From IMG/VR virus record IMGVR_UViG_3300035698_001792, positions 1 to 30,982 of that record: a stretch of DNA of 30,982 bases. One strand, given 5' to 3'. Made by a program: the position numbers and the translations under genes. The notes beneath the pieces were generated by a model. It was not told the DNA's origin, made no database searches, and saw only the letters and a list, made by a program, of their open reading frames with translations. Positions 4,661-26,243 of this stretch are shown here, piece after piece (position 1 is the stretch's first letter; each line of letters begins with the position of its first letter). The stretch comes from a virus.

Positions 4661-5281
4661 TCATATCCCCTCCAAGGTAGTCTGCCGTGTAAACTGATAT
4701 ATCCGGTCTTGCATCGCCTCGTAATAGTCAGCGTCTATCTCAAAGCCCATGTAGTCAAAGCCCATATCGATACAGGCGATTATCGAACTACCCGAACCAA
4801 CGTGAGTGTCAAGTATCTTGTCTCCGGGCTTGGCGTAGGAAATCAAAATCCACTTGTATAAATCTACGGGCTTTTGTGTCGGGTGGATTCTGTCGTGTTG
4901 GTTCGGACTCATTTTTATTATTCGTGCCGATTTATCAAAGGACACCCACGCCTGCTCGCATTCTGCAAAACCTCGTCCGTACATTGTCTCTCCCTTGTCC
5001 CAAACAAAGAAGCATCTATTCGGAGGTAGCTTGAAATAGTTACCGCCCCAGATTACTTGATTTACCGATACCCGTCTAAGCTCGGTAAAATACTCGTCGG
5101 AAGGAACTGCATCATCCCAATTCCTGCTGTCTGGCCTTACGGTTTTACGAGAACCCATGTTCATCTTATTGACACCAATCCCATACGGCGGGTCAACTAT
5201 AGCAAGCTCAAAATACTTGTCGGGTATGTCCGCCATGCCCTCCATACAGTCCATCAGGTGCACCTTGTTTAGCTCCCCCAC
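4661..5281 (-). CDS. DNA methyltransferase, beta class (DPPY type)
   Basis: A 206-residue amino-methyltransferase that would methylate adenine N6 or cytosine N4 using AdoMet. The catalytic motif IV DPPYGIG is at residues 30-36. HPTQKP (about 133-138) and the AdoMet-binding motif DTHVGSGSS (about 158-166) follow. Motif IV before motif I defines the beta group. It is compact, with little room for a large target-recognition domain, as is usual for phage orphan methylases. GTG 5281 is chosen because AAGGAGG is seven bases upstream and the neighbour overlaps by 13 bases. No partner nuclease is adjacent, so anti-restriction or regulation is more likely than a restriction-modification pair. Confidence 0.9.
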   Translation of the reverse strand: MGELNKVHLMDCMEGMADIPDKYFELAIVDPPYGIGVNKMNMGSRKTVRPDSRNWDDAVPSDEYFTELRRVSVNQVIWGGNYFKLPPNRCFFVWDKGETMYGRGFAECEQAWVSFDKSARIIKMSPNQHDRIHPTQKPVDLYKWILISYAKPGDKILDTHVGSGSSIIACIDMGFDYMGFEIDADYYEAMQDRIYQFTRQTTLEGI

Positions 5282-5636: not shown

Positions 5637-6392
5637 CTATACAAACAAACTTGACTGAGCAAATGGAAGTATCTTTTCGTTGGCTTCATTGAAAAAATTC
5701 TTTTTGATCTCAAAGCCATACGCCCTTCGTCCCATGTTTTTCGCCGCCAATAACGTGGTGGCGCTACCGGCAACAGGGTCAATAACCACGTCATTGGTAT
5801 CGGTGAATATTTCTATCAATCGCTCAAGCAGCGGAACCGGTTTCTGTGTCGGGTGTACTTTCGGTGTCTCGGTATCCCGTACCCAAGGCATAGAGTTGAA
5901 TACCATGTTACCGTTGTTCCTGAATTTGGGCAACTTGTCCCGGTAAAGTATCAAGGCATATTCGCTATTGCCAACGACACGCATATTTGCCTTCAATACT
6001 TGCGGTGAAAAGTTCTTGTAAAATACCATGTTGATGTAATTAGGAAACCCGTTTTCCTTGGCGTGTTCTATCAGTTCAAACTGCTGTTCAAAGGAGCAGA
6101 ACACAATCATACACGGTGCTGATTTCGTTGCCTTTGGTTCTTTGATTAACATACGGCTTCCAAAGTGAAAGAATTCCGGTATCTTGAATAGCCCATCAGT
6201 GTCGAAAAATGAAGCGTTGGCATTCTTGCTCTCTCCATTCTTCCTGTCTCCCCCCTCGTACCACATTGGATTACTGCCATAAGCATCGTTACCTACGTTA
6301 TACGGTATGTCGGCAATAATCAATTGCGCCTTCGGTATTGCGTACCCCTTGAAGTTCTGGAAATGGTCATTGAATAATTCAACCCTGTTCAA
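5637..6392 (-). CDS. DNA methyltransferase, beta class (DIPY motif)
   Basis: A 251-residue amino-methyltransferase with a variant catalytic motif IV, DIPYNVGND (residues 28-36). It has HPTQKP at about 180-185 and a motif I of DPVAGSATT at about 205-213, the beta-class order. The middle (about 60-170) is longer than in its neighbour at 4661 and probably holds target recognition. The start is TTG at 6392, seven bases after AAGGAG. It lies two genes upstream of the second methyltransferase, to which it is only distantly similar, so the phage probably protects two different sites. The base methylated (m6A or m4C) cannot be told from sequence. Confidence 0.88.
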   Translation of the reverse strand: MNRVELFNDHFQNFKGYAIPKAQLIIADIPYNVGNDAYGSNPMWYEGGDRKNGESKNANASFFDTDGLFKIPEFFHFGSRMLIKEPKATKSAPCMIVFCSFEQQFELIEHAKENGFPNYINMVFYKNFSPQVLKANMRVVGNSEYALILYRDKLPKFRNNGNMVFNSMPWVRDTETPKVHPTQKPVPLLERLIEIFTDTNDVVIDPVAGSATTLLAAKNMGRRAYGFEIKKNFFNEANEKILPFAQSSLFV

Positions 6393-7749: not shown

Positions 7750-8193
7750 TCAAGTTCCAGACTCATCAGACCTGAACCTAAATGATTGCACAGTCTCAGC
7801 CCATATTGTGAAGTGCTGCTTCAAGCCTACTCTTTTGTAATTCTTACGATTGCTTACCATTTTCACACCCTTCTTTTTTGCATAGTACTTCACGGTGGTA
7901 GACGATACGCCGTACTTTCTGCCGATAGCTTCAGTGTTGATACCAATTCTTACATCATTAAGCATGTTAGCTATTCTGGCAAGGTCCATTTTGCCCTGCG
8001 GACCAACGCGCCTATCTATTTGCTTCATCTCGCGGCAACCAAACTTACACCACCGCGCAGTATCGATACACAACCAAACAGGCTGTACGTATCCCATGTT
8101 AATGTCAAAGTCAATCTCAGTATGCCCGTAGTTGATAATTGGTGACGAGTCGTCGCAAGCATTGCCTAATATTCTACGCCAGTCTTTTGTCAT
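7750..8193 (-). CDS. HTH-containing DNA-binding protein
   Basis: A 147-residue protein whose second half contains a clear helix-turn-helix, EAIGRKYGVSSTTVKYYAKKKG (about residues 88-109), followed by a very basic KMVSNRKNYKRVGLKQH stretch. This resembles homeodomain-like or recombinase-type HTH segments. The N-terminal half has CIDTARWCKFGC cysteines and no recognised domain. The gene overlaps the HNH gene at its start. It probably binds DNA; whether it is a regulator or a replication accessory cannot be told. Confidence 0.65.
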   Translation of the reverse strand: MTKDWRRILGNACDDSSPIINYGHTEIDFDINMGYVQPVWLCIDTARWCKFGCREMKQIDRRVGPQGKMDLARIANMLNDVRIGINTEAIGRKYGVSSTTVKYYAKKKGVKMVSNRKNYKRVGLKQHFTIWAETVQSFRFRSDESGT

Positions 8194-8417
8194 ATTCGCT
8201 TACCCTGTCTTGTCCTGGCGTAGATTATAGTCTCGGCAAGCTCGTGATTATTCTTGCAAAACGTGCGCCAACCATGGTCATGGAACTCGCGGTGATGCAG
8301 AAAGCACAAGTCAAGCATGTTGTACTCATCGTCTACGCCACCCGCGCCTTTGCTGACTATGTGATGTCTACCGCCCTTGACTTCGTTGGGGCAGCCGGAA
8401 ACTTTACATTGTGTCAT
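8190..8417 (-). CDS. HNH endonuclease-like protein
   Basis: A 75-residue protein with the compact HNH/treble-clef pattern: CKVSGC, then RHHIVSKGAGG, then LDLCFLHHREFHDHG. The paired CxxxxC and CxxH-type residues would hold structural zinc, and the HH...N...H residues the catalytic metal. Proteins of this size often sit in lambdoid-like nin regions beside recombination genes; they could resolve DNA intermediates or nick DNA. It is bracketed by ATGA overlaps on both sides. Confidence 0.8.
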   Translation of the reverse strand: MTQCKVSGCPNEVKGGRHHIVSKGAGGVDDEYNMLDLCFLHHREFHDHGWRTFCKNNHELAETIIYARTRQGKRI

Positions 8418-9199
8418 TCGAATAGTACCGTTTGGTCTGTCTCTTCATTCCCCTCTACTCCCAGCCACCACCAAAAAAACTCTTCGCCGCTTGCCCATCT
8501 GTCCACGCTGGTACTGCCGTCTTTTTTGGGTTTGCTCTTACGGTCTGCCCACAGTAGTTCGAAATGCTTGATGAATGCCTTGGTCATGCGCGGGTATCTC
8601 TTCGCCTGCTTCAACCGTTCCTTGCTTCCGGCGTTGGGACAGAATAGGCATCCTATCCGTTTCCAGCCTTCGTCGTAAAGTGAGCAGTACGGCAGTTCCC
8701 TTTCCTTGATGAATTCCCAAACATCATCATCTGACCAGTTTATAATTGGGTTGATGAATATTTTCCCTGAATCTTTATAGCACGGCTCGATAGCTCTACG
8801 GCCTGCACGTTTGGCCGATTCTGCTGCGCGGATGCCCGTGATAACTCGCCGACCAGCGCCGCCATTCTCTTTATACAGCGCGCAGCACCACCGAGCTTGA
8901 CGTAGCGGTGCGCCCTGAATAACAAGTTGTTTGAGTAGTGGCCTTTCGGGATGATCAAAGGTTACGTCTTTGTGGTGCTGCTTGATAAACCGTACCAATT
9001 CGGGCGGGTCAATAGTGGTAACCGAATAATGCGCGTCGTATTTCACGCCCGCCATACGCGCCAACTCTTTGATGCAGATAGAATCCTTGCCTCCGCTGAA
9101 CGCGAGGTAATATCCTTCTGGCGGTTCATGATCTTTCAAGAATTGCACCGACTCAGCCACCTTGTCTATCACGCCGAACAGCCCATCTTCTCTAATCAC
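8414..9199 (-). CDS. PAPS reductase family (PP-loop) phage enzyme
   Basis: A 261-residue member of the phosphoadenosine-phosphosulfate reductase-like superfamily. The nucleotide-binding PP-loop SGGKDS is at residues 35-40. Downstream, the cysteines in WCCALYKENG, EPCYKDSG and GCLFCPNAGSKERL could bind an iron-sulfur cluster, as in DndC-like or tRNA-thiolating relatives. The GTG at 9199 is preferred: GGGGG is six to seven bases upstream, and it gives the usual start (MIREDGLFGVIDKV). The frame is open to a TTG at 9268 but would then run through the small membrane-protein gene. The substrate in phages is unknown; sulfur metabolism or DNA/RNA modification are the main options. Confidence 0.85.
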   Translation of the reverse strand: MIREDGLFGVIDKVAESVQFLKDHEPPEGYYLAFSGGKDSICIKELARMAGVKYDAHYSVTTIDPPELVRFIKQHHKDVTFDHPERPLLKQLVIQGAPLRQARWCCALYKENGGAGRRVITGIRAAESAKRAGRRAIEPCYKDSGKIFINPIINWSDDDVWEFIKERELPYCSLYDEGWKRIGCLFCPNAGSKERLKQAKRYPRMTKAFIKHFELLWADRKSKPKKDGSTSVDRWASGEEFFWWWLGVEGNEETDQTVLFE

Positions 9200-9350
9200 G
9201 ATTATCCCCCATTCGCTTAAGTACCTTTGCGATATGTTTACCATGACATGCCGTATCGATTGCGTCAAGTACTGCGATGCCTGTACAGAATAGCACCATG
9301 CCGGTAATCATGAAAAGTGGTATGCCGATTATTGCTAGGATGATGTTCAT
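9192..9350 (-). CDS. Small membrane protein, 52 aa
   Basis: A 52-residue frame starting MNIILAIIGIPLFMITGMVL. It has one hydrophobic segment over about residues 2-28 and a basic, hydrophilic tail (HGKHIAKVLKRMGDNRD). The stop overlaps the GTG of the PAPS-reductase-like gene, and the start lies at the end of the preceding gene. That coupling and the clean membrane segment support a real gene. The function is unknown. Confidence 0.55.
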   Translation of the reverse strand: MNIILAIIGIPLFMITGMVLFCTGIAVLDAIDTACHGKHIAKVLKRMGDNRD

Positions 9351-12935: not shown

Positions 12936-13000
12936 CTTCCACCTCCATATACTAACACCATACCGGATAAGGCTAAAATTAGCAAGCAGATAATTGTCAT
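12932..13000 (-). CDS. 22-residue membrane micropeptide
   Basis: Starting at ATG 13000 this frame encodes MTIICLLILALSGMVL and then a short Gly/Arg-containing end, a single hydrophobic segment. The start overlaps the TGA of the C5 methyltransferase (ATGA), and its own TGA overlaps the ATG of the zinc-ribbon gene (ATGA). Its final codons, GGAGGTGGAAGA, are the ribosome binding site of that gene. The space between the two larger genes is exactly occupied. Translation is likely from context; the function is unknown, and it may serve only as a coupling leader. Confidence 0.5.
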   Translation of the reverse strand: MTIICLLILALSGMVLVYGGGR

Positions 13001-13584
13001 TTGATACAACTCAAAATATGCTTGCCCACCTCACTATCTACACAGTTGCGAAGTATCTGTCTCTTGTTGGGTATCTTGTAGCCCGATAGGTCAATGTGGT
13101 GTATCTTTTGCAATCCAGGTATCTGCTCATTTCTCAAGTTTGTGCGTTCAAAGTCTCGTTGCGGGATCATAAAGTTTGACCAAAAATAGTGGCGTTGCAA
13201 TACGACTGACTGCTCTATCAGCGGTTCGTAATACGGCTTTACGTTCTCGACAACCCAATAGCTTCGTGCGTTTGCCTGCAGGAATATTATCTCTTGATAC
13301 AACCGCATGTCTGGATAAAGCGGAGCGGCGCCGCGGCACCCGACTTGAAAATGTTGCCTGAATCCTGAGTGCGTTTGGCATGGCGGTGATGACCATATGA
13401 AGTCAAAATCTTTAAAGTGCTGCAATAGGTATTCATGGGCATCGTCAACAATAACAGTATCGGCAGGATATAAGTCTTGATAGATATTAGCTATGTCCTG
13501 ATTGTACTCAACCGCCGTTACGTCGCAGTTATCCCATAGCCTACGGTTACCGCCAAGTCCTGCGTACAGATTGAGAACCTTCAT
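12997..13584 (-). CDS. C5-cytosine DNA methyltransferase (short phage type)
   Basis: Motif I LNLYAGLGGNRRLW is at residues 4-17, the catalytic motif IV SSPPCQTHSG at 65-74 (nucleophile Cys69), and motif VI WVVENVKPYY at 110-119 (ENV). This is the signature of enzymes methylating cytosine C5 with AdoMet. At 195 residues it is much shorter than cellular Dcm-type enzymes, and the C-terminal recognition region and motifs IX-X are reduced. This compact form occurs in phages as an orphan, anti-restriction methylase. The start overlaps the TAA of the previous gene (TAATG). Confidence 0.88.
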   Translation of the reverse strand: MKVLNLYAGLGGNRRLWDNCDVTAVEYNQDIANIYQDLYPADTVIVDDAHEYLLQHFKDFDFIWSSPPCQTHSGFRQHFQVGCRGAAPLYPDMRLYQEIIFLQANARSYWVVENVKPYYEPLIEQSVVLQRHYFWSNFMIPQRDFERTNLRNEQIPGLQKIHHIDLSGYKIPNKRQILRNCVDSEVGKHILSCIK

Positions 13585-13781
13585 TACGCTATCACAAATG
13601 TGGTTGTTGTGGGTGTCATTTGATTATCTGACCCTAAAGTCGCCGAAGCTCTTTCTGTGACCCGTTCTACTTTTGACATCAGCGCCCATGTCCGCTTTAA
13701 TTCGTTCCAGTATTCCGCCGGGTTTATTTCGCCTCGTTCAGCTTGCCGCTGTAGTTTCGATCTTTCGTTGATAATTGTCAT
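13584..13781 (-). CDS. Hypothetical helical protein, 65 aa
   Basis: Begins MTIINERSKLQRQAERGEIN. It is mainly helical and basic in the first half, with a Thr-rich end (MTPTTTTFVIA). Both ends share overlaps with neighbours (ATGA at the start, TAATG at the end), immediately before the C5 methyltransferase. No family is recognised. Confidence 0.5.
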   Translation of the reverse strand: MTIINERSKLQRQAERGEINPAEYWNELKRTWALMSKVERVTERASATLGSDNQMTPTTTTFVIA

Positions 13782-13978
13782 TCGGCAAGTTCTTCTACGG
13801 TCACAGAATCAGGACAGCCAGCAGTAAACGACCATCGCGGATCAGCATCACTCTCATACCATTCGCCGCACATGCCGTAGACAATTTCACTCGCCTCATT
13901 CTCGCTGTGTGCCTCAACCGTTCCGTCAGCTGTTCTGTCGAGTCGGTCAAATTTTGCTCTGTAACCGTATGTTTTCAT
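13778..13978 (-). CDS. Small protein with RWSF-AGCPDSVTVE tail
   Basis: A 66-residue protein reading MKTYGYRAKFDRLDRTADG, with an acidic centre and the C-terminal RWSFTAGCPDSVTVEELAE. The same tail closes the 87-residue protein at 14952-15215, and the DNA is identical over 23 bases (13800-13822 and 14974-14996). The ATG at 13978 is favoured over 13984 because the GGGGG motif then has normal spacing. A strongly structured leader precedes the gene. The function is unknown. Confidence 0.55.
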   Translation of the reverse strand: MKTYGYRAKFDRLDRTADGTVEAHSENEASEIVYGMCGEWYESDADPRWSFTAGCPDSVTVEELAE

Positions 13979-13998
13979 ATTCATCCCCCGTTAAAGTT

Positions 13999-14058: not shown

Positions 14059-14286
14059 CTATACAATGTGCTCATCATCCCAGTCGGCCCGGCTGACTAT
14101 CTCATACTCACCAACGCTATTGGTAATGAGCAACCGCTCGTCATCCCAAGACCACACCATTTCGGTGCACGCGGGCTCTTCACCGCCAAATACCGGCAGA
14201 TCCGTCCGTGCGTCACCATGCACGTCTAATGTGGTAGGATCATTCGCGTTCATCGCCTCGACCAAGTCGTCTAATTTTTTGTCCAT
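14059..14286 (-). CDS. Hypothetical acidic protein, 75 aa
   Basis: Starts MDKKLDDLVEAMNANDPTTL. It is acidic with several Trp and a beta-like second half (WSWDDERLLITNSVGEYEIV). The upstream gene ends about ten bases before it, with AAGGAG in the gap. A hairpin-rich leader follows its stop. No family is recognised. Confidence 0.5.
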   Translation of the reverse strand: MDKKLDDLVEAMNANDPTTLDVHGDARTDLPVFGGEEPACTEMVWSWDDERLLITNSVGEYEIVSRADWDDEHIV

Positions 14287-14296
14287 TTCAATCTCC

Positions 14297-14707
14297 TTAA
14301 TTAGTATATACGTAACAGATCTCTAACCCGCTCCATGAAGGGTTAAGCTGTTTGGTATCAATATTGTATTCGGTGCAGGTCCATGATTTTCCATGATCCA
14401 ATCCAGTGTTTTCAGCAACGGCCAACAGTTCAATGTGGCGAGTGCTGGTAGATTTTCTGCTAACTGTTTCGGTAGCAGTTTCACTGTGAATCGCGTTGTA
14501 CTCGTTCATGGCGGTTTCGATTTTCTGGTAATCGGCTTTTGAACAGGAACCGAGAATTGCGCCGTCTATGACGTGGGGGCATCTAATGCTAGGCATCGTG
14601 GAAAAAAAATCATCAACGTTTTCGCCGATTATTTTGTATCCTGTCAACGCTCCGTTTCTTCCGTTCCAATTCATTGTTATCATTGTTTCTTTTCCGTTGT
14701 TAATCAT
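14297..14707 (-). CDS. Hypothetical protein under operator-promoter
   Basis: A protein of 128-136 residues with Asn-, Thr- and Ser-rich, probably beta, composition. Candidate starts are ATG 14707 (MINNGKETM...) and ATG 14683 (MITMNWNGRNG). The first sits at the expected transcription start of the promoter at 14714-14742, so it would be leaderless. The second has GGAAAAG five bases upstream. The leaderless ATG is listed because the same ATGATTAA context recurs at the other promoter. No family is recognised. Confidence 0.55.
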   Translation of the reverse strand: MINNGKETMITMNWNGRNGALTGYKIIGENVDDFFSTMPSIRCPHVIDGAILGSCSKADYQKIETAMNEYNAIHSETATETVSRKSTSTRHIELLAVAENTGLDHGKSWTCTEYNIDTKQLNPSWSGLEICYVYTN

Positions 14708-14742
14708 ACTAATAGTATACGCCACAACGCACAAAAAGTCAA
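14706..14742 (-). promoter_or_regulatory. Sigma70 promoter with palindromic operator
   Basis: On the minus strand: TTGACT (14742-14737), a 17-base spacer and TATACT (14719-14714). Overlapping the -10 and the start point is a perfect 13-base palindrome ATACTATTAGTAT (14706-14718). A 22-base block spanning the -10, the palindrome and ATGATTAA (14700-14721) is identical to 15928-15949. The palindrome placement is typical of a repressor site that blocks polymerase. The repressor is not identified; the HTH protein at 14761-14955 is one candidate. Confidence 0.75.
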
Positions 14743-14760
14743 TAGGTAAATGAAAAATAA

Positions 14761-14955
14761 TTAAGGAAAAAGCGCTATTGCGTTTATTTTTTTAGGCCGC
14801 CCGACGTTGCCTATGGTAGAACGGATCTGTGCAATTTCAGCGGGCGAGAATAGGTAATCCCGGCCGATCTTTTGCTTATGCTGTCTCAGTGCCCACTGCT
14901 GTACCCGGCGCATGGTCAGGCCAAGCATAGCGGCGACTTGTGCGGATGTTTTCAT
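14761..14955 (-). CDS. Small HTH DNA-binding protein (MerR/excisionase-like)
   Basis: A 64-residue protein with an N-terminal winged-HTH-type segment: SAQVAAMLGLTMRRVQQWAL, then IGRDYLFSPAEIAQIRST. This is the pattern of excisionase/MerR-like small regulators that bend DNA. The C-terminus contains the basic GRPKKINAIALFP. The ATG at 14955 overlaps the TGA of the preceding gene. It lies between the two identical operators and could be their regulator, or an excisionase if this is a temperate phage. Confidence 0.7.
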   Translation of the reverse strand: MKTSAQVAAMLGLTMRRVQQWALRQHKQKIGRDYLFSPAEIAQIRSTIGNVGRPKKINAIALFP

Positions 14956-15215
14956 ATTGCGAGCGCCTCGACCGTCACAGAATCAGGACAGCCAGCCTCG
15001 AAACTCCATCGCGCTTCAGGCGCATTGCTCTTGCTGGCTACTACTTGCCTCTGCTCAGTGACATCATCGCCGGTAGCAATCTGTAGTGTGGAGTCAAGAT
15101 AGCCATCGCCGTACATGCGGGTGCGCTCTCGTTTGGCACCGGTCAACGTATGCGCCTTGCACCCCGCCCAATAGCCGATCTCGCTGTTACTCTTGCTTGT
15201 CATGTAATAATTCAT
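14952..15215 (-). CDS. Hypothetical protein, 87 aa, RWSF-AGCPDSVTVE tail
   Basis: Begins MNYYMTSKSNSEIGYWAGCK and continues with a basic/aromatic region. It ends RWSFEAGCPDSVTVEALAI, the tail shared with the 66-residue protein at 13778-13978. The ATG at 15215 follows GGAGGAATAA, which is the end of the degenerate gene at 15216-15504. The role is unknown; the shared tail marks it as a module shuffled within this operon. Confidence 0.55.
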   Translation of the reverse strand: MNYYMTSKSNSEIGYWAGCKAHTLTGAKRERTRMYGDGYLDSTLQIATGDDVTEQRQVVASKSNAPEARWSFEAGCPDSVTVEALAI

Positions 15216-15504
15216 TTATTCCTCCATCGCCTTGGTCATCATTGCGCTGTGGTCGGCATACTCATCAGATACGATAGCCGCCGCGCCCTTGCCCTCTACG
15301 GAGATGCTAAACCGTTGTTTGCAAACATGAGTCTCTACTCGGCGAGATTGTTATGCTTACTAAGCCTACAATAAAGCAATATGAAAAGCTATACGGCAAG
15401 CGATTGTAGCCATCGGCAAATTGGGTTTCTGTGAGTATCAATTCGCAGGTGGCCGTGACTTCCGCGTCGCTTAATGTTTTCCACGTGTGAGTTTGTTTTG
15501 TCAT
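15216..15504 (-). pseudogene. Degenerate copy of the 136-aa gene at 15525
   Basis: The first 33 codons (MTKQTHTWKT...CELILTETQFADG) match the N-terminus of the neighbouring 136-residue protein. The sequence then runs into an unrelated segment of about 75 bases and stops at 15307. In a different frame it resumes with CKQRFSISVEGKG, jumps to AAAIVSDEYADHSAMMTKA and stops at 15216. So it is a tandem duplicate with an insertion, a frameshift and an internal deletion. The insert contains CTACAAT...ATTGTAG (15366-15372 and 15403-15409) as an inverted pair. It still supplies the ribosome binding site of the next gene. The 5' fragment could be expressed as a 65-residue peptide. Confidence 0.65.
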
Positions 15505-15524
15505 TGTTTTTTCTCCTTGTTAAT

Positions 15525-15935
15525 TTATTCCGCCGTCGCCTTGGTCATCATTGCGCTGTGGTCGGCGTACTCATCAGATACGATAGCCGCCGCTTTTTCA
15601 GACGCAATTTTTGCTACCCATGCAGGATGGAGTTCGATTATCTCGACCATGGCGTCTATCGCGTCAAGATTCTCTTGCGAAATTACCAATTTGCCGCATG
15701 TCGCGGGGTACATGATTCCGCCCATTTCTTGGGGTTTGCGGCTGATAAATAATCCTACTGTACCCTTGCCCTCTACCGCGATGCTAAACCGCTGTTTGCA
15801 AGTCGCGGTCTCAATATTCTGTCCGTCGGCAAACTGAGTTTCGCTGAGGATCAATTCGCAGGTAGCGGTAACTGTCGCGCCGCTTTGTGTTGTCCAGGTG
15901 TATGTCGTTGTTTCGCTTTCCTTTGTCTTAATCAT
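15525..15935 (-). CDS. Hypothetical protein, 136 aa, first gene of accessory operon
   Basis: Starts MIKTKESETTTYTWTTQSGA and has an N-terminal beta-rich half (ATVTATCELILSETQFADG, CKQRFSIAVEGKG). A helical C-terminal half ends AAAIVSDEYADHSAMMTK. There is no ribosome binding site before the ATG at 15935, which instead sits at the predicted transcription start of the promoter at 15942-15971. A leaderless message is therefore likely. A decayed duplicate follows. No family is recognised. Confidence 0.6.
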   Translation of the reverse strand: MIKTKESETTTYTWTTQSGATVTATCELILSETQFADGQNIETATCKQRFSIAVEGKGTVGLFISRKPQEMGGIMYPATCGKLVISQENLDAIDAMVEIIELHPAWVAKIASEKAAAIVSDEYADHSAMMTKATAE

Positions 15936-15971
15936 ACTAATAGTATACGGCAGATACGCATCAATTGTAAT
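15934..15971 (-). promoter_or_regulatory. Promoter with the same palindromic operator
   Basis: A TATACT -10 (15947-15942) and a weaker ATTACA -35 (15971-15966) with an 18-base spacer. The palindrome ATACTATTAGTAT (15934-15946) overlaps the -10 and the ATG of the next gene, as at 14706-14742. The 22-base core is identical between the two sites, while the flanks and the -35 are not, which argues for selection on the operator and start region. Confidence 0.65.
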
Positions 15972-16232
15972 AGGCTGAGAGAAAATAAATGCGAAATAAT
16001 GAAAGTTTTTTTAGTGAAGGGGTAACGGTTGTGTAGTAGTTTGAATGGTGTGCCGTGATAACGGTAGAATTGCGAGATTTTATGTATAGAGGATCGACGT
16101 AGATAGGTTAAAGGGTAAAAAGTATGCTATAGCGGTAAACCGCGTGAGAGCCGCGAGGATTGGCACTACTGCGATACGACGATATCAGTATAATATCTGA
16201 CGATAACTGACGATAGGTAACGAAATTAGTAA
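15972..16232. other. Intergenic control region between late and accessory blocks
   Basis: No convincing gene is seen here. Visible structures are a tandem 10-base repeat CTGACGATA (16197-16205 and 16207-16215), a hairpin GCGGT-AA-ACCGC (16132-16143) next to CGCG...CGCG, and the small palindrome CCGTGATAACGG (16053-16064). A clear terminator with a T-run was not found on either strand. The region follows the last lysis gene and precedes the operator-bearing promoter, so regulatory sites or an attachment/packaging site are plausible but unproven. Confidence 0.4.
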
Positions 16233-16583: not shown

Positions 16584-16587
16584 TCAT
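16282..16587 (-). CDS. Overlapping-frame membrane protein; i-spanin-like candidate
   Basis: A 101-residue frame fully overlapping the spanin candidate, starting at ATG 16587. The N-terminus MNEKVKRVLYFAAGITIITL continues to a single membrane segment ending near RVVLQRR. A hydrophilic, Ser/Ala/Lys-rich helical tail follows (SAKLASDIKRSNSTAQRL). That resembles inner-membrane spanins or Rz-type proteins. Its ATG overlaps the stop of the holin-like gene (ATGA) with GGAG five bases before, a better-placed site than for the other frame. Overlapping Rz/Rz1-type genes are well known; whether both frames are expressed here is inferred. Confidence 0.45.
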   Translation of the reverse strand: MNEKVKRVLYFAAGITIITLGIILRVVLQRRGLSSPIGQPGGDIPSANLAGDANSAAGEAVDNSAKLASDIKRSNSTAQRLVHRGSDLLAKAKHRDGNSGG

Positions 16588-16775
16588 TTTTTCTCCAAAA
16601 CCGTCACGCCAAGCATTGCGCCAACCATAACGGCAAACGGCCATATGATATTCCCAACTTGTGACGGGTCCTTGACAATGGCATACCCTGCTATAAATGA
16701 CATTACCACGAACCCCGAGAAAGCTATTACCCTTTTGCTTGATGTCTTTTTGCTTGCGTCTTTTAATACTTCCAT
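16584..16775 (-). CDS. Holin-like protein, two TM segments
   Basis: A 63-residue protein: a basic N-terminus (KDASKKTSSKR), a first membrane helix VIAFSGFVVMSFIAGYAIV (17-35), a short polar loop with DPSQ, and a second helix IIWPFAVMVGAMLGVTVL (about 43-60). It ends in EKK. Size, topology and position between a candidate endolysin and spanin-like genes fit a class II holin that times lysis by permeabilising the inner membrane. The assignment rests on topology and context. Confidence 0.6.
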   Translation of the reverse strand: MEVLKDASKKTSSKRVIAFSGFVVMSFIAGYAIVKDPSQVGNIIWPFAVMVGAMLGVTVLEKK

Positions 16776-25434: not shown

Positions 25435-25836
25435 TTACGTAGTCACATATGTAAGATTGCCGGTGCCCTGAAAAGTCCAGCTTACCGTAACCTTATCTGC
25501 TACACTTGAATTGATAGTTTCGCCCGTTACATACGCCTCGCCCTGCCAATGTGAGGTAGAATCATATAACCATAATGACAGAGTAGTACTTGTCGCGGTA
25601 CTCTCGAAGTCATTTAGGATAACTACTTGCCCGGTTGTATCGCTTCTGTCAAGCGTACCGCCACACGTTACCGACCAACCCCTGAGAGTTGACACGTACG
25701 CTTTTGAAGTATTGCCGTAGGCCGTTACCTCAGCAGTACCTATCTCTGCATTTAGTGTCCAGGTATCAATGTATACCGGTTTACCCGTAGTACCGTCGAC
25801 GGATATAAACCCGTCCTTGCCCATTGTTGCCGCCAT
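25435..25836 (-). CDS. Tail tube protein, paralog 2
   Basis: A 133-residue protein starting MAATMGKDGFISVDGTTG. It shares with its upstream neighbour the phrases MDTW/IDTW, ITAYG/VTAYG, SKAY, LRGWSV/LRSWAM, GTLDRSDT and a C-terminal VSWTFQGTGNL. The Gly/Thr/Ser-rich beta-sheet composition and ~130-residue size fit a siphovirus tail tube protein, which polymerises into rings around the tape measure. Which of the two is the major tube subunit is unclear. An AGGAGATATTAA site precedes the ATG. Confidence 0.72.
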   Translation of the reverse strand: MAATMGKDGFISVDGTTGKPVYIDTWTLNAEIGTAEVTAYGNTSKAYVSTLRGWSVTCGGTLDRSDTTGQVVILNDFESTATSTTLSLWLYDSTSHWQGEAYVTGETINSSVADKVTVSWTFQGTGNLTYVTT

Positions 25837-25847
25837 TTAATATCTCC

Positions 25848-26243
25848 TTATGATGTGGTAGCGGAAAGATTGCCGTTACCGTTACCGGTCCAACTAATCG
25901 AAACCTTATCGCCAACCTGTGAATTTATAGTTTGCCCGGTCAACCTTACGCTACCAGACCAATATGATGCGGCCGCAAAATAAAACCTACACGCGATATC
26001 CGCGAGTGTTCCATCCTCGAACTGATCCATCATATCAGCTTGATCGGTATCTGACCTGTCAAGCGTACCACTCGCGGTCATGGCCCAACTACGTAATGAG
26101 CTACCATACGCTTTCGATGAATCTCCATATGCCGTTATTTCCGGCGTATCGATTCCAGGGGTAATTGCCCACGTATCCATATAGGCTACCGTGCCCGTGG
26201 TGCCTATTAAAAACTTACCGTCCTTTCCTACTGTCGCCGCCAT
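25848..26243 (-). CDS. Tail tube protein, paralog 1
   Basis: A 131-residue protein beginning MAATVGKDGKFLIGTTGTVA. It contains AYMDTWAITPG, EITAYGDSSKAYGSSLRSW, GTLDRSDT and a final ISWTGNGNGNLSATTS. It is clearly paralogous to the next gene and roughly as long. It directly follows the tail terminator gene, the usual place for the major tail protein. Tandem tube paralogs are unusual; one may have an N-terminal or decoration role. The ribosome binding site is AGGGGGCAACA. Confidence 0.72.
   Translation of the reverse strand: MAATVGKDGKFLIGTTGTVAYMDTWAITPGIDTPEITAYGDSSKAYGSSLRSWAMTASGTLDRSDTDQADMMDQFEDGTLADIACRFYFAAASYWSGSVRLTGQTINSQVGDKVSISWTGNGNGNLSATTS

Follow-up and report, generated by a model that had tools for sequence, protein, structure and literature searches.

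A predicted sigma70-type promoter-leader unit, duplicated locally, precedes two phage genes of which one is a candidate for leaderless translation

We found that two sites in the window (the whole stretch of DNA analysed here, 30,982 nt of the IMG/VR record IMGVR_UViG_3300035698_001792) are, judged by their sequence, copies of one promoter with a short leader, A and B, that would have arisen by local duplication. The explanation we favor, to which we give a probability of roughly 0.65, is that a sigma70-type promoter and its leader were copied within a repeatedly duplicating region and that host RNA polymerase would read both copies. The 22-bp core that they share would represent the -10 element, the melted region and the start site, and the palindrome in it would be mostly a by-product, arising mainly since the T-A-T start region is a mirror image of the TATA -10 box. 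Gene A would be translated mainly from an ATG 24 nt downstream of the predicted +1, its in-frame +1 AUG being a possible minor start, and in copy B the equivalent start would have become ACG, leaving gene B to be translated from the +1 AUG of a leaderless message. In this account it is the transcription starts, the translation starts, the direction of the ATG/ACG change and the use of the host polymerase that we infer. The copies and their core are:

14680-14746, minus strand: copy A of the promoter-leader unit, gapped match to 15905-15974
15905-15974, minus strand: copy B of the promoter-leader unit, gapped match to 14680-14746
14700-14721 and 15928-15949, minus strand: 22-bp core, identical in A and B

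The sequence itself shows the duplication, as it does the ACG, the elements of the promoters and the frame that the copies share. Gapped self-comparison aligned 15905-15974 with 14680-14746 at 57 of 71 positions (80% identity, 5 gap positions, E=6e-10), the duplicate extending from upstream of the -35 into the leader and ending where the downstream codon of the leader begins. The 22-base minus-strand identity that the earlier note had reported at 14700-14721 and 15928-15949 is exact, and it takes in TATACT, the perfect 13-bp palindrome ATACTATTAGTAT and ATGATTAA. That note had described twin promoters with a common core that diverge on both sides: the core is indeed shared, but it originated in the duplication of a 71-nt unit, and the divergence holds for ungapped identity only, the gapped alignment spanning all 71 nt. 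Identity is 22/22 in the core versus about 71% (35/49) in the remainder of the duplicate, and the core is thus kept better than promoter function alone obviously demands. Among 100 dinucleotide shuffles, none contained even a single copy of the 19-mer at three or fewer mismatches. The leaders of A and B differ by one 2-nt and one 1-nt indel, which jointly preserve the frame. Self-comparison of the region also revealed other local duplications around the unit, including that of gene B and its broken partial copy, and two small ORFs at 13778-13984 and 14952-15215 have a near-identical C-terminal stretch (CPDSVTVE), a further local duplication.

Elsewhere in the window, adjoining ORFs at 25435-25836 and 25848-26243 are paralogous (48% identical), and adjacent N6/N4 DNA methylase ORFs at 4661-5281 and 5637-6392, of which the second aligns with just the C-terminal portion of its Pfam model, are either a split gene or a partial duplicate. 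The ORF at 12997-13584, apparently partial, matches the beginning of C-5 cytosine DNA methylases over its first 76 residues. There is also a gene with a PAPS-reductase domain, of phage accessory type (8414-9268), and a very weak sigma-factor match (E=0.009) at 7750-8193.

The promoter elements of the two copies are:

14737-14742, minus strand: copy A -35 hexamer, TTGACT
14714-14719, minus strand: copy A -10 hexamer, TATACT, 17 bp from the -35
14705-14707, minus strand: copy A ATG at the predicted +1, in the frame of gene A, a possible minor start
15965-15970, minus strand: copy B -35 hexamer, TTACAA, weak
15942-15947, minus strand: copy B -10 hexamer, TATACT, 17 bp from TTACAA

Each copy has the near-consensus hexamers and 16-18 bp spacing of a sigma70-type promoter (TTGACT-17-TATACT and TTACAA-17-TATACT), and in both an ATG lies 7 nt past the -10 hexamer, as had been noticed before. 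They are like known sigma70-type phage promoters in their -35 and -10 hexamers, 17-bp spacing, A at +1 and T at -1, and differ from them by the perfect palindrome from -11 to +2 and by occurring as two diverged copies. Because consensus matches alone are not above chance (11 were found in the region versus 10.2 expected), the case for promoters rests on the duplication and on a homologous promoter in another contig. The one recognisable relative of gene A among viral contigs is in IMGVR_UViG_3300033148_002120 (36.8 kb, hereafter G001), with 52% protein identity; phage records gave none, and the 393 genomes of a Spirochaetaceae MAG's phylum yielded none that was convincing, one fragment with stops being found there. 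The promoter before the G001 homologue reads TTGACA-17-TATATTATTAATATG with a -10 of TATATT, its upstream flank aligns with those of both A (shuffle p 0.0005) and B (p <0.0005), and CCTATT stands at an equal distance before the -10 in all three. On these alignments we take the G001 promoter to be homologous to A and B, and A and B to be sigma70-type promoters, both probably used by host RNA polymerase. Overall, the duplicated unit is an element of a known kind. In G001 (L286) a second palindrome, GTCCCC-AC-GGGGAC, occupies the promoter spacer (1407-1420), and an upstream integrase-like ORF (626-1342) has matches limited to the N-terminal and central integrase domains. G001 also has a homologue of the weak sigma-factor match at 7750-8193.

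Could the symmetric -10 instead mark bidirectional promoters that also fire an antisense transcript, at a distance of about 10 bp, from the other strand? What defines such promoters is that starts diverge at a distance of 7-25 bp and that the -10 elements and starts of both strands overlap (PMC10268837). In A and B, CATACT is present on the opposite strand at the mirror position, and symmetry about the -10 element is a likeness to the bidirectional promoters of bacteria (PMC10268837, PMC12825309). However, by eye we saw no convincing opposite-strand -35 at 17 bp, nor any sign that an antisense message is needed, and we regard this possibility as very improbable.

The palindrome and the gene that lies between its two occurrences are:

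14706-14718, minus strand: copy A 13-bp palindrome ATACTATTAGTAT, predicted -11 to +2
15934-15946, minus strand: copy B 13-bp palindrome ATACTATTAGTAT
14761-14955, minus strand: HTH protein, 64 aa, with a sub-threshold HTH_17/excisionase-like match and a G001 homologue

The perfect palindrome claimed for the shared block, two 6-nt arms with T at the centre, was found in both A and B, and the HTH ORF does lie between the two sites. From these the earlier note had proposed a palindromic operator. In that case both genes would be silenced together by a repressor of the phage, for which the HTH protein is a candidate, bound over the -10/start region of each copy. The identity of the core between the copies despite their diverged flanks speaks for such an operator, as do two features of G001, whose palindrome differs from that of the window by two changes at mirror positions, a symmetric C:G to T:A change that keeps it palindromic, and in which a homologue of the HTH protein (45%) lies in the same gene neighbourhood, near the promoter, together with one of the ORF at 14059-14286. 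Against it, the Pfam match of the HTH protein is weak, falls below the cut-off and resembles excisionase/MerR-type domains. Nothing was found that links this protein to the palindrome, and its homologues were absent from phage records. A repeat (D6) considered as a second HTH gene was rejected; the ORF there, 16584-16775, resembles a membrane protein.

Another source of the symmetry can be found in promoters at large. In 92 strong, non-seed phage promoters, taken from fetched viral DNA and selected without regard to the motif, the start consensus is T at -1 (0.50), A at +1 (0.57) and T at +2 (0.48), and since a TATA -10 and this T-A-T mirror each other, together they produce the palindrome's three outer pairs. 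The pattern TTG-N20-TATACTATTAGTAT occurs in at least 119 stretches of viral contigs, versus 11 matches, none with a TTGAC -35, for the scrambled control TTG-N20-TATACTATTATGAT; the start-consensus frequencies predict an excess of about 2.6-fold, and the observed excess is larger, its surplus not accounted for. Among the matches listed, many lie at evident promoters in unrelated phages, others are chance matches, and a large group belongs to one marine T7-like phage family in which the site precedes a single-stranded-DNA-binding-like gene. We therefore rejected the palindrome as a specific viral signal, that family and the chance matches making up part of the count and the start-site consensus accounting for much of it. 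An operator for a host regulator was rejected as well, there being just 27 TTGACA-N17-TATACTATTAGTAT sites in the genome collection, spread over unrelated phyla. In one bacterial phylum the TATANTATTANTAT form is rare (11 matches in 398 genomes).

Covariation was an argument for selection on symmetry, and it did not last. Among 101 deduplicated TATANTATTANTAT sites, positions -8 and -2 were complementary in 42 versus 26.8 expected (p=0.0003, relatedness uncorrected), but after clustering by shared flanking genes the figures became 12.1 versus 10.3 (p 0.30) or 19.0 versus 15.2 (p 0.14), and unselected promoters had no covariation at -6/-4. Symmetry is thus not established as a selected trait. 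The palindrome is kept in G001; the same 14-mer also stands at the promoters of unrelated phages. With its outer pairs explained by promoter and start consensus and its covariation lost on clustering, the repressor operator is left unsupported and we consider it unlikely.

Gene A, read from its probable start, is:

14297-14683, minus strand: gene A (128 aa when counted from this start), 52% identical to the G001 homologue, the alignment beginning at this ATG

Copy A has a usable Shine-Dalgarno start in its leader, a second in-frame ATG 24 nt downstream of the predicted +1 that follows a weak Shine-Dalgarno, GGAAAAG. Because the homology between gene A and its G001 counterpart begins at this second ATG (14683), which in G001 has a strong Shine-Dalgarno (AAGGAGAACAAAATG), gene A most likely starts there, with its +1 AUG as a possible minor start; the earlier proposal that the gene A message is leaderless does not fit this. 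Might both messages nevertheless be leaderless, so that gene A, like gene B, is read mainly from its +1 AUG? In A, in B and in G001 this AUG shares the frame of the gene, and the 24 or 27 nt by which it would lengthen the reading frame are stop-free.

A wider sample of promoters bears on the same question. ATG stood exactly at +1 in 16 of 138 deduplicated strong, motif-free promoters (the contigs were fetched by motif searches and so are non-random, and the starts were predicted from sequence), and 14 of the 16 opened a long ORF, meaning one of 50 or more codons, or of 25 or more where it runs off the contig. Neighbouring offsets gave 0 to 3 long ORFs each, and a random TATG opens one in 26% of cases. 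An ATG at +1 behind sigma70-type promoters therefore looks common in environmental phages, which would favor leaderless starts in both genes; however, a further in-frame start with a Shine-Dalgarno lay within 60 nt in 0 of the 14 leaderless-type genes, unlike in gene A. Taken with the point at which the gene A homology begins, this makes leaderless translation of both messages improbable, and we retain 14683 as the predicted start of gene A.

The lambda cI message from PRM is leaderless. In phage PY54, leaderless cI and cro messages have been proven by RACE and the operator tested by gel shift (PMC4488713). As in both of these phages, the start codon in A and B would lie, as predicted here, at the 5' end of the message from a strong promoter; unlike those leaderless genes, genes A and B match no repressor, and, unlike the mapped ends and tested operator of PY54, those of A and B are predictions from the DNA. 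The view that a paired operator/start module of this kind is unusual gives way before the apparent frequency of ATG at +1 and this mapped precedent. The same promoter core occurs upstream of the SSB-like gene of the marine T7-like phages (L003-L007, L020, L029, L057 and relatives), where it is followed by a 5'-terminal hairpin in which the stem sequence varies and the pairing is kept (for example UUCUGAG/CUCAGAG and CUUGG/CCAAG). We considered, and rejected, that these phages share a conserved upstream ORF of 10 codons (MISNNAI...) that is leaderless, the leader being this sequence-variable hairpin with a persistent stem.

Gene B and the features that bear on its start are:

15525-15935, minus strand: gene B (136 aa), opened by an ATG at the predicted +1, candidate leaderless, no other ordinary start near the N-terminus
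15906-15908, minus strand: ACG facing copy A's Shine-Dalgarno-linked ATG in the A/B leader alignment
15220-15504, minus strand: partial, broken copy of gene B that keeps a Shine-Dalgarno and an ATG (repeats D1, D2, D4)

As the earlier note had observed, no Shine-Dalgarno precedes the ATG at 15935, and the leader of copy B offers no usable Shine-Dalgarno start. In the leader alignment (...GAAACAA[T/C]GA) an ACG in B stands opposite the ATG in A, and no other ATG, GTG or TTG was found near the start of gene B; for these reasons the 15935 ATG is the best start for the gene. Over its predicted first 68 nt the B transcript folds less stably than each of 200 shuffles, which suits leaderless initiation. 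The part of the earlier proposal that concerned gene B therefore appears likely, and on this sequence evidence gene B is probably translated from the +1 AUG, although weak initiation at the ACG, or decay of B as a gene, is conceivable. ATG is present in copy A, in G001 and in the broken gene B copy alike, which suggests that ATG is ancestral and ACG came later. Gene B had no relatives in phage records, and its sole other occurrence, in a contig from a different sample, shows 99.74% identity and provides no further test. The broken duplicate has unrelated sequence inserted within it.

We conclude that leaderless translation has a good candidate in gene B and that the annotated start of gene A should shift to 14683. 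For palindromes over -11 to +2 more generally, promoter and start-site preferences alone may be their source, and an operator reading needs further evidence. The frequency of ATG at +1 bears on how gene starts are called and on phage expression without a ribosome-binding site. We suggest tentatively, as something possible that we would not yet call probable, that a latent in-frame AUG was present as the first transcribed codon and that one duplicate lost its Shine-Dalgarno-linked start and turned leaderless; if true, this would show a route from leadered to leaderless phage genes.
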